This document shows, one piece after another, positions 2,738 through 8,291 of a DNA stretch of 55,533 nt. The notes beneath the pieces are model-generated. The model made no database searches. It saw nothing but the letters and a program-made list of their open reading frames with translations, and had not been told where the DNA came from. Origin of the DNA: Frankiaceae bacterium. GTDB lineage: Bacteria; Actinomycetota; Actinomycetes; BP-191. The DNA lies in contig DATMES010000068.1 in the NCBI GenBank assembly GCA_035556555.1, forward strand, positions 1-55,533, given 5' to 3'. The translations under genes and the position numbers were made by a program. Each line of letters begins with the position of its first letter. Positions within the stretch are counted from its first letter, which is position 1.

Positions 2738-3646
2738 GTGCGCATGTCCTCCGACCCCGGGCTGACCGTCGCCGCGGTGGCGCGCCGTCTGGGAGTCGCC
2801 CCCGCGACGCTGCGTTCCTGGGAACGCCGCTACGGGCTCGGCCCCTCCGAGCGAACCCCCGGCGCCCATCGCCGGTACACCGCGTACGACCTCGCCGTCC
2901 TGGACCGGATGCACAAGCTGACCCTGGAGGGCGTCGCCCCGGCCGATGCCGCGCGGGCCGCCCTGCTGGACCCGCAACCACTCGCAACGCAGGGTGGCGG
3001 CACGGAGTTCCACCTCGAGGTCACGACCCCGCAACGAGTCAGCGCCCGCGCCCGCGGCCTCTCCCGCGCGGCGCTGGCCCTGGACGCGGTGGCCGTCCGC
3101 GACCTGCTGCGGGAGTCCGTCGCCGCGGAGGGCGTGATCGCGACCTGGGAGGCCCTGCTCGCGCCCGTGCTCCGCGCCGTGGGTGACCGCTGGGCGGTCA
3201 CGGGCGAGGGCGTCGAGGTCGAGCACCTGCTCAGCGAGGTGGCGATCGGGGTGTTCTCCCGCGTCGAGGCGGAGCCCGCCGCGCCGTGCCGGCCCGTGCT
3301 CCTGGCCTGCGCCGACGGCGAGGGCCACAGCCTGCCGCTGCACGCCCTCTGCGCCGCCCTGGCCGAACGCCGCGTGGCCGCCCGCATGCTCGGCGCCGCG
3401 CTGCCGCCGGCCGCGCTGGCCGCCGCGACGCGCCGTACGGGCCCCGCCGCGCTCGTCGTCTACGCCCACCAGCCCGAGCACGCCATGACCGGCCTGCTGG
3501 CGGCGGTCCCGCAGCAGCGGCCGCGCACGGCCGTCCTCGCGGGCGGGCCAGGCTGGGCGCCGGAGGCGCTACCGGAGCGGGTGACGTACGTGCACGACGT
3601 CGGCGAGGCCGTACATCTCGTGCTCGTGGCTACGGGCGTGGGGTAG
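2738..3646 (+). CDS. MerR-family regulator with cobalamin-binding module (CarH/LitR-like)
   Basis: The protein of about 302 residues starts with a MerR winged helix (LTVAAVARRLGVAPATLRSW, then ERRYGL and HRRYTAYDLAVLDRM). A four-helix bundle follows with Trp and an EH pair (GDRWAVTGEGVEVEHLL), matching the W...EH motif of CarH that surrounds adenosylcobalamin. A Rossmann-type domain contains GEGHSLPLHAL, in which E-x-H corresponds to the lower-ligand motif. CarH/LitR proteins repress DNA in the dark and release it when light breaks the Co-C bond. The usual Gly after the E-x-H is Pro here, so cofactor binding needs testing. GTG 2738 or ATG 2744 could start it. It is divergent from whiD across the direct repeats. 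Confidence 0.8.
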   Translation: MRMSSDPGLTVAAVARRLGVAPATLRSWERRYGLGPSERTPGAHRRYTAYDLAVLDRMHKLTLEGVAPADAARAALLDPQPLATQGGGTEFHLEVTTPQRVSARARGLSRAALALDAVAVRDLLRESVAAEGVIATWEALLAPVLRAVGDRWAVTGEGVEVEHLLSEVAIGVFSRVEAEPAAPCRPVLLACADGEGHSLPLHALCAALAERRVAARMLGAALPPAALAAATRRTGPAALVVYAHQPEHAMTGLLAAVPQQRPRTAVLAGGPGWAPEALPERVTYVHDVGEAVHLVLVATGVG

Positions 3647-3818: not shown

Positions 3819-3844
3819 GGTCTCTTGTGACTCAGGAGGCGCTG

Positions 3845-4759
3845 GTGGCGGACGAGGACCTCGGGCAGCTGCTCGCCCAGGGCGAGCGGGCGGCGTTCCA
3901 CGGACCCCCGGGCAAGGCGGTGGAGTCGCTCAGCCGCGCGATCGAGCTGGCGCACTCCGACGGCAACAGCGAGGCCGCCACGGCCGCGCTCTGGCTCATG
4001 GGTGTGTCGCTGGGTGCCTGCGGCCGCTACGGCACCGCGATCACGACGCTCACGCCCGTCCTGGAGGCCGGCGAGGCCGCGGACACCGGTCCGGCGCGGC
4101 TCTTCGGCGCCCTCGCGGGGGCCAGCCTCGGGTCGATGCGCCGCCAGCTCGGCCGGCACGCCGAGGCGCGCGAGCACGACGAGCGCGGGCTGGCGCTGAC
4201 CGACGGGACGGGGGAGGCGGCGTTCGCGTGCCTGCTCGGCCTCGCCGCCGACGCCGTGGGCCTCAACGACGCCGCCACCGCCCACGACAAGGCCGACGCC
4301 GCCGAGGCCCTCCTCCCCGAACGCCCCACCGAGTGGTGGCGGCAGCGCGTCCGGCTCGACTGGGTTCGTGCCGAGATCGCCCTGCTCGAGGAGGACCCGG
4401 AGACCGCCGTCGACGCCGCCGAGGCCGCCGTCGAGCGGGCCGAACGCTCCCGCGCGCCGCGGCACGTCGCCAAGAGCCTGCTGTTCCAGGGCGTCGCGCA
4501 GATCCAGAACGCCGACCTCGACGGCGCCGCGGCACTGCGCCGCGCCGCCACGCTCGCCGAGAGCCTGGGCGCGCTGCCGCTCGTCTGGCCGTCGCGCGCG
4601 CTGCTCGGCGCGCTGCTGGAGGAGAGCGAGCCCGAGGAGAGCGCGACGTCGCTGGGGGCCGCGCGCAGCGCCGTGCTCGCCATCGCCGGCGACCTCCCGG
4701 ACGGGATGCGCGAGGACTGGCTGGCCAGGGACGAGATCGTCGCGCTGCTGGGGACGTAG
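3845..4759 (+). CDS. TPR-like helical protein upstream of bldM
   Basis: The product has about 304 residues. GTG 3845 is chosen because AGGAGG ends five bases before it; an in-frame GTG at 3827 is the alternative. The sequence is almost entirely alpha-helical and Ala/Leu/Glu-rich, with repeated TPR-like pairs such as ALWLMGVSLGACGRYGTAIT, GASLGSMRRQLGRHAEAREH and LLFQGVAQIQNADLDGAAAL. TPR proteins are protein-interaction scaffolds. It is the first gene of a run with the kinase-like gene (90-bp gap) and bldM. A hypothetical protein sits at the equivalent place between whiB3 and sigD in mycobacteria (from memory). Its partner and role are unknown. Confidence 0.75.
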   Translation: MADEDLGQLLAQGERAAFHGPPGKAVESLSRAIELAHSDGNSEAATAALWLMGVSLGACGRYGTAITTLTPVLEAGEAADTGPARLFGALAGASLGSMRRQLGRHAEAREHDERGLALTDGTGEAAFACLLGLAADAVGLNDAATAHDKADAAEALLPERPTEWWRQRVRLDWVRAEIALLEEDPETAVDAAEAAVERAERSRAPRHVAKSLLFQGVAQIQNADLDGAAALRRAATLAESLGALPLVWPSRALLGALLEESEPEESATSLGAARSAVLAIAGDLPDGMREDWLARDEIVALLGT

Positions 4760-4814
4760 CGCGGGCCTTCCTGCCCGCGGCCATGGCCCGTACGGACCAT
4801 TTTCGCCAGAACGC

Positions 4815-4842
4815 TCAGCCTCCCCCCGCACACTGCCGATGA
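4815..4842 (+). promoter_or_regulatory. WhiG/FliA-type promoter-like sequence directly before the pseudo-kinase gene
   Basis: CTCAG (4814-4818) and GCCGATGA (4835-4842) are separated by 16 bp, close to the actinobacterial WhiG/FliA pattern CTCAA-N15/16-GCCGAT. Transcription would start near 4849-4850, on the ATG at 4850, giving a leaderless mRNA. The gene has no recognisable Shine-Dalgarno, which fits. Confidence 0.5.
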
Positions 4843-4849
4843 CGACTGC

Positions 4850-5485
4850 ATGACCCCGGTGACCAGCGTCGACGCCCCGCCCCGCGCGGCGGCCGCCACG
4901 CGTGCCGCCGAGGCGCTCGCGGAGGTCGAGGCCGAGCGCGCCGCGCTCAGCGGCCTGCTCCACGACAAGGTCTTCCAGTCGCTGCTCGCCGCGCGGTTCC
5001 TCGCCGAGCTGAACGACGCCCCCGACGTCCGCGACGCCGTGCGCGACGCGATGACCGAGGTCACGTCCGCGATGTGGGCGCTGCGCCCGCGTACCGCGGA
5101 AGGCCACCTCGTCCGCGCCCTCGGCGAGCTGGCCGACCGGCGCACGGGCGTCGTCGTCGCCGTCCGCGCAGGCGGCGTACCAGACCGCATCGACCCCGCC
5201 GCCGCGACGGTGGCGTACCGCGTCGCCCAGGCGGCGCTCGACGCCTGCCAGGGCACGACCATGGACGTGCGCGTCGAGGTCCGTTCCGGAACGCTGACGG
5301 TGTCCGTCTGCGACGACGGCGTGGCGTACGACGCCGCGGCGTACGAGCCCAGCAGCGACCTGACCCGCTGGCTGGCCCGCGCGGGGACGCTCGGCGGCTG
5401 CGCCCGCGTCGGGGACGGCACGGCCGGCGGTACGACGCTCTGGCTCGAGATCCCGAACGTCCTGCTCGCCGAGGGGGAGAAGTGA
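4850..5485 (+). CDS. Degenerate histidine-kinase-like protein coupled to BldM
   Basis: This soluble 211-residue protein has a dimerisation/phosphoacceptor-like helix LLHDKVFQSLLAARF (His38), resembling the LHD box of NarL-type kinases. A C-terminal HATPase-like fold follows: YRVAQAALDACQG where the N-box should be, VCDDGVAYD for G1 and GGTTLWLEIP at the end. The N-box Glu and Asn and the G1 Gly are missing, so ATP binding is unlikely. There is no sensor or membrane segment. Its TGA overlaps the GTG start of bldM, so the two should be made together. It may be a phosphotransfer, docking or anti-regulator partner of BldM. Streptomyces BldM is regarded as an orphan response regulator. Confidence 0.75.
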   Translation: MTPVTSVDAPPRAAAATRAAEALAEVEAERAALSGLLHDKVFQSLLAARFLAELNDAPDVRDAVRDAMTEVTSAMWALRPRTAEGHLVRALGELADRRTGVVVAVRAGGVPDRIDPAAATVAYRVAQAALDACQGTTMDVRVEVRSGTLTVSVCDDGVAYDAAAYEPSSDLTRWLARAGTLGGCARVGDGTAGGTTLWLEIPNVLLAEGEK

Positions 5486-6108
5486 CCACCGTCCTGATCT
5501 GCGACGACCACCGGATCGTCCGGGAGGGTCTGCGGCAGTTCGTCGAGGACGTTCCCGGCGTCGACCACGTCGTCACCGCGGCGTCCGGCGAGGAGGCGCT
5601 GGCGCGCTTCTCCGCCGAGCACCCGGACCTCGTCCTCATGGACGTCTCGATGCCCGGCCTCAGCGGCCTCGAGGCGACGCGGCGGCTCATCGCCGCCCAC
5701 CCGCTCGCCAACGTCGTCATGCTCACCGCGCAGGAGGACCGCGACCACGTCGCCGCGGCCGTCACCGCCGGCGCGCGCGGCTACCTCGTCAAGGACGTCT
5801 CCCGCGAGGAGCTCTGCGCCGCCGTCGCCCACGCGCTGGCAGGCCGCGACCTCGTCGAGCCCTCTCTCCGTCGTGCGCTCACCGAGCGCGGCTCCCGCGA
5901 CGCCTCCGGCGGCGCGCAGCTGACCGAACGCGAGCTCCAGGTTCTGACCGGCATGTCCCAGGGCAAGAGCAACGCGCAGATCGGGCGCGAGCTGTTCCTG
6001 TCGGAGGACACCGTGAAGACCCACGCGCGCAGGCTGTTCCGCAAGATGGGCGTCAGCGACCGCGCGCAGGCCGTCGCCTCCGGCTTCCGCAGGGGCCTCG
6101 TCACCTGA
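5482..6108 (+). CDS. bldM: BldM, NarL/LuxR-type response regulator
   Basis: The 208-residue protein starts at GTG 5482 within the stop of the kinase-like gene. The receiver domain keeps the acidic pocket (CDDH), the phosphoacceptor Asp54 (LVLMDVSMPG) and the YLVKD lysine. The LuxR-type HTH contains GMSQGKSNAQIGRELFLSED and VKTHARRLF, followed by SDRAQAVASGF, which closely matches Streptomyces BldM. BldM homodimers, or heterodimers with WhiI, activate development genes. The place between whiD and guaB supports orthology. Unlike the Streptomyces gene it follows a kinase-like gene in a probable operon, with WhiG-type promoter-like sequences upstream. Confidence 0.9.
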   Translation: MTTVLICDDHRIVREGLRQFVEDVPGVDHVVTAASGEEALARFSAEHPDLVLMDVSMPGLSGLEATRRLIAAHPLANVVMLTAQEDRDHVAAAVTAGARGYLVKDVSREELCAAVAHALAGRDLVEPSLRRALTERGSRDASGGAQLTERELQVLTGMSQGKSNAQIGRELFLSEDTVKTHARRLFRKMGVSDRAQAVASGFRRGLVT

Positions 6109-6179: not shown

Positions 6180-6497
6180 ATGCTGTCCGGTGCCGTTCCC
6201 GAGCCGTGGCTGCTCGACGCGCTCCGTGGTCACGCCGGCGAGGGGGCGCCGTACTGGCGCCGCGTCTGGGCCATGCGCGGCCTCCTGTGGGCGTACGAGC
6301 CCTCCGCCTCCGCCGCTGTGATCGCAGGCCTCTCCGACGAGGCGTGGCGGGTCCGTGAGATGGCCGCCAAGGTCGTCGCGCGGCACCTCGTGGGGGAGGC
6401 GTTCGAGGAGGTCGTACGCCGCCAGGGCGACGAGGTCCCGCGCGTCCGCGCCGCCGCGTCCCGCGCGGTGATGCGCCTGACGGACGTCGGGGCTTAG
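6180..6497 (+). CDS. HEAT-repeat-like small protein
   Basis: The ORF from ATG 6180 encodes 105 residues of paired helices (YWRRVWAMRGLLWAYEP, AVIAGLSDEAWRVREMAAK, DEVPRVRAAASRAVMRL), typical of HEAT repeats. The reading frame stays open and protein-like upstream (LTPKVRIEAACEAHGRSAVV) to a CTG at 6105 that overlaps the bldM stop as CTGA. The true protein may therefore be 130 residues with a rare CTG start coupled to bldM. Function is unknown; HEAT proteins usually act as binding scaffolds. The end overlaps the convergent acidic protein gene by four bases. Confidence 0.65.
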   Translation: MLSGAVPEPWLLDALRGHAGEGAPYWRRVWAMRGLLWAYEPSASAAVIAGLSDEAWRVREMAAKVVARHLVGEAFEEVVRRQGDEVPRVRAAASRAVMRLTDVGA

Positions 6498-6877
6498 CCC
6501 TTCCCGCTGTTCGAGCCGCTGCGGTCGTCGTCGCCGCCACCGGGGCCGCTGTTGTCGTCGTCGTCGTCCTCGTCGTCGTCGCCGCGGCCGTCGCTGTCGT
6601 CCGGCGCATCGGGCGTCTCGGACGCCGACGGGCTGTCGTCCGGCGAGGGCGTGTCGTCGGCGCTCGGGGTCTCGCTCGGCGAGGACGTACGGCCGTCGCT
6701 GTCGTCGGGCGCGTCCGGCGTCTCGGTCGGCGACGGCGTCTCCTGCGCGTCGTCGGCCGAGTTGCGGACGTCCACGATGCGCGCGGAGCCGGTGCTGCCG
6801 CCGCTCACCGCGTGCGCGCCGAGGGCCGCTACCGCGAACGTGCCGGCCAGGGTCAGGGGCAGGGCGATGCGTCGCAT
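6494..6877 (-). CDS. Small exported Asp/Ser/Pro-rich acidic protein
   Basis: ATG 6877 follows a GGGAG Shine-Dalgarno. The 127-residue product has a signal-peptide-like start (MRRIALPLTLAGTFAVAALG, then AHAVSGG) and then a low-complexity region of Asp, Ser, Pro, Thr and Glu with internal repeats (ETPDAPDDSDGR occurs twice). It ends in a Gly/Ser/Asp tract. It should be secreted or wall-associated, with a very low pI. The gene is divergent from sigD, and its composition resembles the extracellular tail of the neighbouring anti-sigma factor. No enzymatic motif is seen. Confidence 0.7.
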   Translation of the reverse strand: MRRIALPLTLAGTFAVAALGAHAVSGGSTGSARIVDVRNSADDAQETPSPTETPDAPDDSDGRTSSPSETPSADDTPSPDDSPSASETPDAPDDSDGRGDDDEDDDDDNSGPGGGDDDRSGSNSGKG

Positions 6878-6990
6878 GAGGTCACTCCCAGGTGAGATTC
6901 GCTGTCGGCTGCTGCATCGCGGAAGCAACGGCCCGCGTTACGACGTTGGATGGGTCCGTGTCCGATGTAACGCCGTCCGCCGCGGGAGCG

Positions 6991-7542
6991 ATGTCCCTGT
7001 CGGTGAACGACGCCGCGCTCGTCGAGAGCGCACGACGAGGCAGTACGGACGCCGTCCAGGACCTGCTCAGGCAGGTACGTCCGGCGGTGCTCCGCTACGC
7101 CTCCGCCCGGCTCGGTCGCCGAGACGTGGCCGAGGACGTGACGCAGGAGGTGTGTCTCGCGGTGCTGACCGCACTGCCGTCGTACGAGGACACCGGACGG
7201 CCGTTCCGGTCGTTCGTCTTCGGCATCGCGGCGCACAAGGTCGCCGACGCGCACCGGGCGGCGTACCGGAGCAGGGACGTCCTCACCGACGACCTTCCGG
7301 AGCCGCGGGACGACGCCCCGGGCCCGGAGGAGCTCGCCGTACGCAGCGACGAGGGCAGGCGCGCGATGGACCTGCTGCACCGGCTGCCCGACGAGCAGGC
7401 CGAGCTGCTGTACCTGCGGGTCGCGGCGGGCCTGTCGGCGGAGGAGGTCGGCGGCGTCCTCGGGATGTCGCCGGGCGCGGTGCGCGTCGCGCAGCACAGG
7501 GCGTTGAACAGGCTCCGGGAGCTGGCGGGAGGTACGCGATGA
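6991..7542 (+). CDS. sigD: ECF sigma factor SigD
   Basis: The product has about 183 residues from ATG 6991; GTG 6958 is an in-frame alternative. Region 2 contains [20 protein letters not shown] and [20 protein letters not shown], very close to mycobacterial SigD. Region 4 contains [20 protein letters not shown] and [14 protein letters not shown] sigma factors direct RNA polymerase to stress or cell-surface promoters and are held by membrane anti-sigma factors. The stop TGA overlaps the ATG of the RsdA-like gene. The place upstream of guaB matches sigD in Mycobacterium and the sigma factor gene between bldM and guaB in Streptomyces. Confidence 0.9.
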
Positions 7543-8291
7543 GCGACATCGACATCGCCCGCGACGACCTCGCGCTGGACGCGCTGGCGGCGGGCCTGGT
7601 GCCCGACACCGACGACGAGGCGCTGCTGCTGCTGGGCGCGCTGCGTACGGACCTCGACCTGCCTGCCCAGGCTCCCGACGTCGTCCCGCTGCGCCGCAAG
7701 CCCCGTCGCCTCGCCGCCGTTGCGCTGTCCGCCGCGGCCGGCCTGATCCTCGGCGGCATGACCGCCGGCGCCGTCGTGACGTCGGACCAGCCCGGGGAGC
7801 TGTTCTACGCCGCGCACAAGGCGGTCCTCGGCGACCCGCGCGCCTCGGAGCGCGTGACGAAGCTGCTCGACGAGGCGCAGGAGGAGCTCGACGAGGGTGA
7901 CCGCCGCGGCGCGATCCAGCGGCTCGACAAGGCCGGCGAACGCCTCGGCGACGTCGAGGACCCGGTCGCGCGGGAGGCGTTGCGGGCGAGGCTCGACCGG
8001 CTCCGCGCCATCGCCGCTGCCCCGGCGCCGCCGCCGCAGCCGCGCGAGTCGTCCGGCTCCGACGACGACAGCTCGGGCACGGGGTCGGGCTCCGACGACG
8101 ACAGCTCGGGCAGCGGGTCCGGCTCCGACGACTCGGACTCGTCGGGCAGCGGCTCGGGGAGCGACGACAGCACCGACGACTCGGGCAGCAACTCCAGCAG
8201 CGGCTCGTCCGGCTCCGGGTCCGGCGACTCCGGCAGCGACTCGTCCGGCAAGGGCTCCGGCAACAGCGGCTCCGGCAGCGACGACGACTGA
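7539..8291 (+). CDS. rsdA: RsdA-like transmembrane anti-sigma-D factor
   Basis: The 250-residue protein starts at ATG 7539, overlapping the sigD stop. The cytoplasmic N-terminus ([20 protein letters not shown], then [13 protein letters not shown]) matches the short SigD-binding segment of RsdA. One membrane helix spans about residues 58-80. The outside part begins with a helical stretch ([20 protein letters not shown]) and ends in some 80 residues made almost entirely of Ser, Gly and Asp. RsdA of Mycobacterium releases SigD after regulated proteolysis and ClpXP degradation of its cytoplasmic part. The long acidic Ser/Gly tail is unusual and may be disordered or wall-embedded. Confidence 0.88.

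Follow-up and report, generated by a model that had tools for sequence, protein, structure and literature searches.

Development in Streptomyces is governed by the master regulator BldM, which is described as an orphan. The phosphorylation pocket of the Streptomyces protein is complete although BldM works without it, and we know of no explanation for why it is kept. The window analyzed here, a 55,533-nucleotide stretch from an actinobacterial genome (3.98 Mb in 71 contigs), raises the question of whether BldM has a partner in other actinobacteria: a gene for a kinase-like protein lies directly upstream of bldM and shares four nucleotides with it (Table 1). The regulator gene was assigned as a bldM orthologue from its conserved neighborhood (whiB, bldM, the gene for a ShbA-type sigma factor and guaB; more fully whiB, MerR gene, TPR gene, bldM, ShbA-type sigma gene, guaB), and its product has the receiver pocket of D, D, D54, T and K together with a LuxR-type DNA-binding domain and is 60-62% identical to Streptomyces BldM. 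Downstream of bldM are genes for a HEAT-repeat protein, the ShbA-type sigma factor and Lgt (named from sequence only), followed by guaB and guaB3. We found the same three genes (TPR, kinase-like and bldM) with the GTGA overlap in two further species of the genus (L002 and L003), and therefore the arrangement is not an assembly error. Relative to the window, BldM is 91-93% identical in these two species and the TPR protein 83-88%, with 58-64% for the kinase-like protein.

Table 1. Features of the bldM locus, in window coordinates.
Feature	Position	Strand	Remark
whiB	2346-2648	minus	locus neighbor
MerR/B12-binding regulator	2738-3646	+	between whiB and TPR gene
TPR protein	3827-4759	+	general bldM neighbor; context, not specific to the pair
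Intergenic region before pseudo-kinase gene	4760-4849	+	blocks conserved in genus: ACCATTTT.GCC, TGCCGATG, TGCATGAC
Pseudo-histidine kinase gene	4850-5485	+	211 aa, ATG start; DHp and CA-like domain
H-box H38-D39-K-V-F-Q43	4961-4978	+	phosphoacceptor-like His and HisKA_3 DxxxQ phosphatase motif
Degenerate N-box QAALDACQGTT	5228-5260	+	no Asn; from alignment against ordinary NarL-type kinases
Degenerate G1 box DDGVA	5312-5326	+	second Gly replaced by Ala159
Trp174	5369-5371	+	family-invariant (15/15 in alignment), at the place of the G2 box
GTGA overlap	5482-5485	+	4 bp; pseudo-kinase stop (TGA) and bldM start (GTG)
bldM orthologue	5482-6108	+	NarL-type response regulator, GTG start; pocket D8 D9 D54 T82 K104 intact

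The kinase-like protein has two DHp helices (residues 12-54 and 58-78) and a CA-like domain (residues 83-204), and no sensor domain. Its Pfam scores are sub-threshold for both HisKA_3 (16.0 bits, where the cut-off is 24 bits) and HATPase_c (13.8 bits); two distant relatives in the family, L034 and L036, clear the HisKA_3 cut-off with 40.0 and 34.4 bits, and the window protein itself carries the HDxxxQ motif of HisKA_3 DHp domains. In an AlphaFold model (pLDDT 83.7, pTM 0.77) the two DHp helices form a hairpin and the remainder an alpha/beta domain like that of CA domains, and the closest structures in the PDB are DesK, VraS and DosS (Z about 13.5), which are all HisKA_3-type. A PDB sequence search with the family profile gave no match at E 0.01. 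When aligned with ordinary NarL-type kinases from related genomes, the N-box of the window protein reads AALDACQGT where the kinases have ALTNVARHA. In the G1 box Asp155 and Gly157 are kept and the second Gly is lost, so that half of the box survives in the window genus, and the Gly of the G2 box is missing, with Trp174 nearby. Outside the genus the G1 box is entirely gone, and the ATP-binding residues (N-box Asn, G1 DxGxG, G2 Gly) are absent or incomplete in every family member. Autophosphorylation is therefore not expected of the window protein; a weak nucleotide pocket might persist in the window genus. The first-pass annotation of this DNA had called the product a pseudo-histidine kinase without an N-box or G1 glycine, encoded by a gene that overlaps the start of bldM, and had proposed structure prediction as a check. 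These points held: the model folds like a kinase, yet residues needed for ATP binding are absent. Judged from sequence, the gene encodes a pseudo-kinase made from a NarL-type (HisKA_3) kinase core: the fold is kinase-derived, catalytic residues are missing and the protein is conserved as a family.

To define the family, we searched for BldM orthologues in 296 genomes of the class, in two orders and a family of interest, and in a named genome collection, and typed the neighbors of bldM by tblastn. A degenerate kinase-like gene was found directly upstream of bldM in 17 species: the three of the window genus, one lineage in family f17 (G189), G023 (= L067), G011 (= L068), five species (L037-L041) in one order, f13, and six MAGs (L061-L066) that carry the names Frankiales or Mycobacteriales. 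The overlap with bldM is mostly 4 bp; in a few relatives it is small but of another length, or the genes are separated by 6-15 bp. A profile built from 15 members and run over the 296 genomes returned ten strong matches (E <= 1.5e-46), all of them adjacent to bldM, and the next matches, at E = 2.8e-19, were ordinary kinases. We therefore conclude that in this sample of 296 genomes the family exists only as a partner of bldM, and on the evidence of gene order its coupling to bldM is exclusive. The first-pass annotation had taken the protein for a degenerate partner dedicated to BldM and had suggested a survey of relatives for the pair, of which absence from all of them would have counted against the idea. 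The pair recurs, and this together with the differing docking face of BldM (see below) bears out the proposal. Some members (L034, L036, L064, L066 and those of order f13) have an extra GAF-like N-terminal part by marginal Pfam scores and a weak model, and the window genus and L061-L063 have none. The model of L064 (pLDDT 67, pTM 0.42) is laid out like a GAF domain at the N-terminus and repeats the order of elements in the CA-like part, and is too weak for a claim about the N-terminal fold. L067 is a MAG labeled Mycobacterium sp. (RYN_182), a label that looks doubtful because its bldM groups with Frankiales-like lineages.

Conservation was read from an alignment of 15 members. Trp174 is invariant and occupies the G2-box site of kinases, and Asp39 is nearly invariant. 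The HDxxxQ motif is kept in 10 of the 15, which are all ten members outside order f13 with a readable H-box. In the five f13 members the His is replaced by C, L or R or is deleted, and the Gln is lost as well; Gln43 is thus kept or lost together with the His. The phosphoacceptor-like His38 pointed out in the first-pass annotation is present in the window, but it is not a constant of the family, in which ten of 15 members have it and five do not, and the family in this respect departs from phosphotransfer proteins of the Spo0B/ChpT type. Twelve residues after the His (F50 in the window), 13 of 15 members have F, Y or W and two have His. The corresponding residue in DesK, Leu200, inserts into the pocket of its regulator (PMC5231405). 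We also compared dN/dS (Nei-Gojobori), which is rough for such GC-rich genes. The kinase-like gene stands at 0.46-0.65, against 0.15-0.22 in bldM and 0.20-0.22 in the TPR gene. Relative to dS, the pseudo-kinase evolves about three times faster than bldM. The pseudo-kinase gene is under weaker constraint, yet its dN/dS is below one and its frame is intact in every species where it is complete.

If the two proteins interact, BldM itself might differ with the presence of the partner. The phosphorylation pocket is complete in 12 of 12 partnered BldMs outside order f13. In that order, where the partner lacks the His, the pocket is damaged in three of five BldMs, by D54G (L040) or T82A (L039 and L041). 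The L040 gene, at 2109 on the minus strand, adjoins a His-less partner. Partnered and unpartnered BldMs are told apart best by receiver columns 10, 11, 12, 19, 20, 63, 83, 89, 106 and 114. In DesR, the elements that contact DesK are alpha1, the start of beta4-alpha4, beta5-alpha5 and the start of alpha5 (PMC5231405). Eight of the ten columns lie on these elements compared with 2.4 expected (Mann-Whitney p 0.002; 4/10 and 2/10 in controls), a comparison that is confounded with descent and for which we took the residue ranges from the published description once the columns had already been inspected. Independent contrasts number only three, are neutral or in the expected direction with none opposite, and are too few for a test. 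We conclude that the docking face of BldM changed in correlation with partner presence, as far as the few independent events in these sequences allow. The residue following T82 is A or G in 17 of 17 partnered BldMs and bulky in 34 of 37 unpartnered ones, and a review suggests that the Val at this place hinders Streptomyces BldM. We did not rely on this residue as proof that partnered BldMs are phosphorylatable; in ordinary regulators the same place is taken by M, V, A, S, I or T.

How might a kinase without ATP motifs act on BldM? The protein would not load phosphate from ATP, and would therefore act on BldM by binding. The DxxxQ motif of HisKA_3 proteins has a phosphatase role (PMC3510030), and a dedicated phosphatase or clamp is therefore the simplest action for a kinase-dead HisKA_3 protein that keeps it. 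The function that we infer, and favor tentatively as somewhat short of an even chance, is that of a dedicated pseudo-kinase which binds to BldM and, with no autophosphorylation of its own, controls the regulator, probably as an ATP-independent phosphatase or clamp. In such a model, translational coupling would yield the two proteins in a fixed ratio, and the dimeric DHp hairpin would dock on the BldM receiver in the manner of DesK on DesR, at alpha1 and at the beta5-alpha5 loop. The pseudo-kinase would clamp BldM, and Asp39 and Gln43 would strip phosphate that BldM might receive elsewhere, from another kinase or a small-molecule donor. The result would be a built-in negative control of BldM. 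Against this reading stands Streptomyces BldM, for which phosphorylation is dispensable (PMC4125116). HisKA_3 phosphatases work without the His (PMC5231405, PMC12632262), so that the phosphatase role leaves the retention of the His unexplained, and it is mainly for this reason that we keep a role in phosphotransfer open.

As a phosphotransfer protein, the pseudo-kinase would receive phosphate on His38 from another regulator, or in trans in a mixed dimer with an intact kinase, as in the cross-talk between pseudo-ChrS and HrrS, and pass it to Asp54 of BldM. This would account for the retention of His38 and the adjacent acidic residue in ten of 15 members although a HisKA_3 phosphatase can work without the His, and it agrees with the BldM pocket, which is intact in all 12 lineages that do not belong to the His-less order. 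The precedents we know for a broken kinase core in such a role are the phosphotransfer proteins Spo0B and ChpT, whose degenerate cores have a His in the DHp domain and an ATP-binding domain that no longer serves. Nevertheless, the five His-less members retain the gene, its coupling and the Trp signature, the fate of Gln43 follows that of the His, and there is no known phosphate donor, and we regard phosphotransfer as rather unlikely. The His-less members of order f13 show that in one lineage at least it can be enough for the protein to bind, and binding could be the whole function: a docking protein or chaperone that controls homo- or heterodimerization of BldM without phosphate chemistry. Members lacking both His and Gln persist beside bldM, the Trp is invariant when the active residues are not, and Streptomyces BldM acts as homo- or heterodimers and needs no phosphorylation, as D54A complements (PMC4125116). 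If docking were all, however, HDxxxQ should drift in the other lineages, yet it is kept in every readable case there despite strong divergence, which makes an explanation by docking alone improbable.

It is also conceivable that the gene is a functionless relic of a kinase, in decay and kept open by the GC-rich sequence and the overlap with bldM. Its dN/dS is higher than those of bldM and the TPR gene, and the gene has been lost in G298 and in part of order f13. We consider this very unlikely, since 17 species with about 30% identity keep the gene open and coupled, its Trp invariant, Asp39 nearly so and HDxxxQ preserved in most, and since the docking face of BldM varies together with the pseudo-kinase.

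The phosphatase or clamp that we favor can be compared with known systems. The pseudo-kinase shares its fold and HDxxxQ helix with DesK of Bacillus subtilis, a HisKA_3 kinase that acts with the NarL-type regulator DesR (PMC5231405), as well as the docking position at His+12 and, by prediction, regulator docking through alpha1 and the beta5-alpha5 loop. DesK, however, is an ATP-binding, autophosphorylating kinase with sensor helices in the membrane, whereas the pseudo-kinase has no ATP motifs or sensor domain. Pseudo-histidine kinases are an already known kind of protein (PMC4211667, PMC9491836). Caulobacter DivL likewise uses a non-catalytic kinase core in developmental control, and its His is replaced as in order f13, but DivL is HisKA-type and large, has an extended sensor part, regulates the kinase CckA and is not coupled to a gene for a NarL-type regulator (PMC4211667, PMC9491836). 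The ChrS pseudokinase variant of Corynebacterium glutamicum is a NarL-type kinase with a broken CA domain that still modulates regulator phosphorylation, although it is a laboratory-evolved frameshift and not a conserved family (PMC9491836). Spo0B and ChpT are likewise degenerate kinase cores, and the pseudo-kinase differs from them in that one order does without the His and in the overlap with the gene of its partner. In Streptomyces (PMC4125116), bldM is the same gene by synteny (whiB, bldM, ShbA sigma gene, guaB), but no kinase-like gene lies beside it, and BldM differs at docking residues 10-12, 20, 83, 106 and 114.

Did BldM gain this partner, or lose it in Streptomyces? The unrooted BldM tree required four changes of partner state. 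When rooted on 17 other NarL-type regulators, the tree placed the partnered Frankiales-like lineages as basal and all remaining BldMs, including the His-less f13 pairs, in one clade (support 99/97), a rooting that is not final, as the root consists of distant, long-branched paralogues. Position 10 is His in 16 of the 17 outgroup regulators and in partnered BldMs, and Ser in Streptomyces. The rooted tree and His10 in the outgroup therefore favor an ancestral partner, lost towards Streptomyces, over a recent gain. This suggests that Streptomyces BldM may have become an orphan through loss of its pseudo-kinase partner, and if the rooting is right, the phosphorylation-independence of Streptomyces BldM would be a derived state. 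The pseudo-kinase would then probably derive from BldM's ancestral partner kinase, having lost catalysis, then in one order the His, and in the Streptomyces line the gene. We think it a reasonable possibility, if one held with less than even confidence, that BldM was at first an ordinary two-component regulator, that in the coupled pseudo-kinases we see surviving intermediate steps on its way to becoming an orphan and that phosphate control persists in the first group. In a first stage, represented by the window genus and Frankiales-like lineages, ATP use would have been lost with HDxxxQ kept and BldM still under phosphate control through its kinase-dead partner. In the second, seen in order f13, the His would have gone and the pocket of BldM would have been damaged, and the third would be loss of the gene, as in Streptomyces and most others. 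Descent of the kinase-like protein and BldM from one living system, for which NCBIfam MctS/MctR gave the best matches, was rejected as not specific, because MctS is also the best match of ordinary kinases, and MctR is matched by some ordinary NarL-type regulators no less well than by BldM. Regulators encoded next to the nearest ordinary kinases share only 32-42% identity with BldM.

Taken together, these results suggest that BldM once had, and in these actinobacteria still has, a dedicated partner. The kinase-dead family is a concrete candidate for how BldM was, and may still be, controlled, and the pairs offer a natural series of steps in a regulator's loss of its kinase. We found no description of the pseudo-kinase/bldM gene pair in the open-access papers searched, nor, in those papers, of a conserved HisKA_3-derived pseudo-kinase family coupled to bldM.

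The first-pass annotation had also drawn the TPR protein into the control of BldM. We rejected it as a third partner: the TPR gene ends 90 bp upstream of the pseudo-kinase gene, the two are not tightly linked, and it precedes bldM in many actinobacterial lineages that have no kinase-like gene (neighbors typed by tblastn). Near bldM it is absent in Streptomyces, Kineosporia and Motilibacter, and its product has no specific family name. The 90-bp gap has conserved blocks of its own, which are kept in three species while the remaining gap diverges, and may contain a promoter or operator for the pseudo-kinase gene and bldM. By eye, we found no matching upstream element that would make the TGCCGATG block part of a WhiG-like promoter.

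Several other genes deserve mention. L185 (G000:C45:5737-6240) encodes a LuxR-type regulator with a broken receiver, having A, V and A at the positions of D54, T82 and K104, and it could be a WhiI-like partner of BldM. Developmental control by BldM involves its homodimer and also WhiI; no WhiI was identified in the genome. The MerR regulator upstream of the TPR gene has B12-binding domains, a CarH-like match below the cut-off and, by eye, a W-x9-EH stretch of the kind that CarH light sensors have. A similar gene lies upstream of bldM in many lineages, and a light or B12 input near bldM is therefore conceivable. Near the ShbA-type sigma gene, the products of 7540-8291 (+) and 6494-6928 (-) have long tails rich in Ser/Asp/Gly or Asp/Ser/Glu. 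The former gene directly follows the sigma gene, and its product has one apparent membrane helix and is perhaps an anti-sigma protein.
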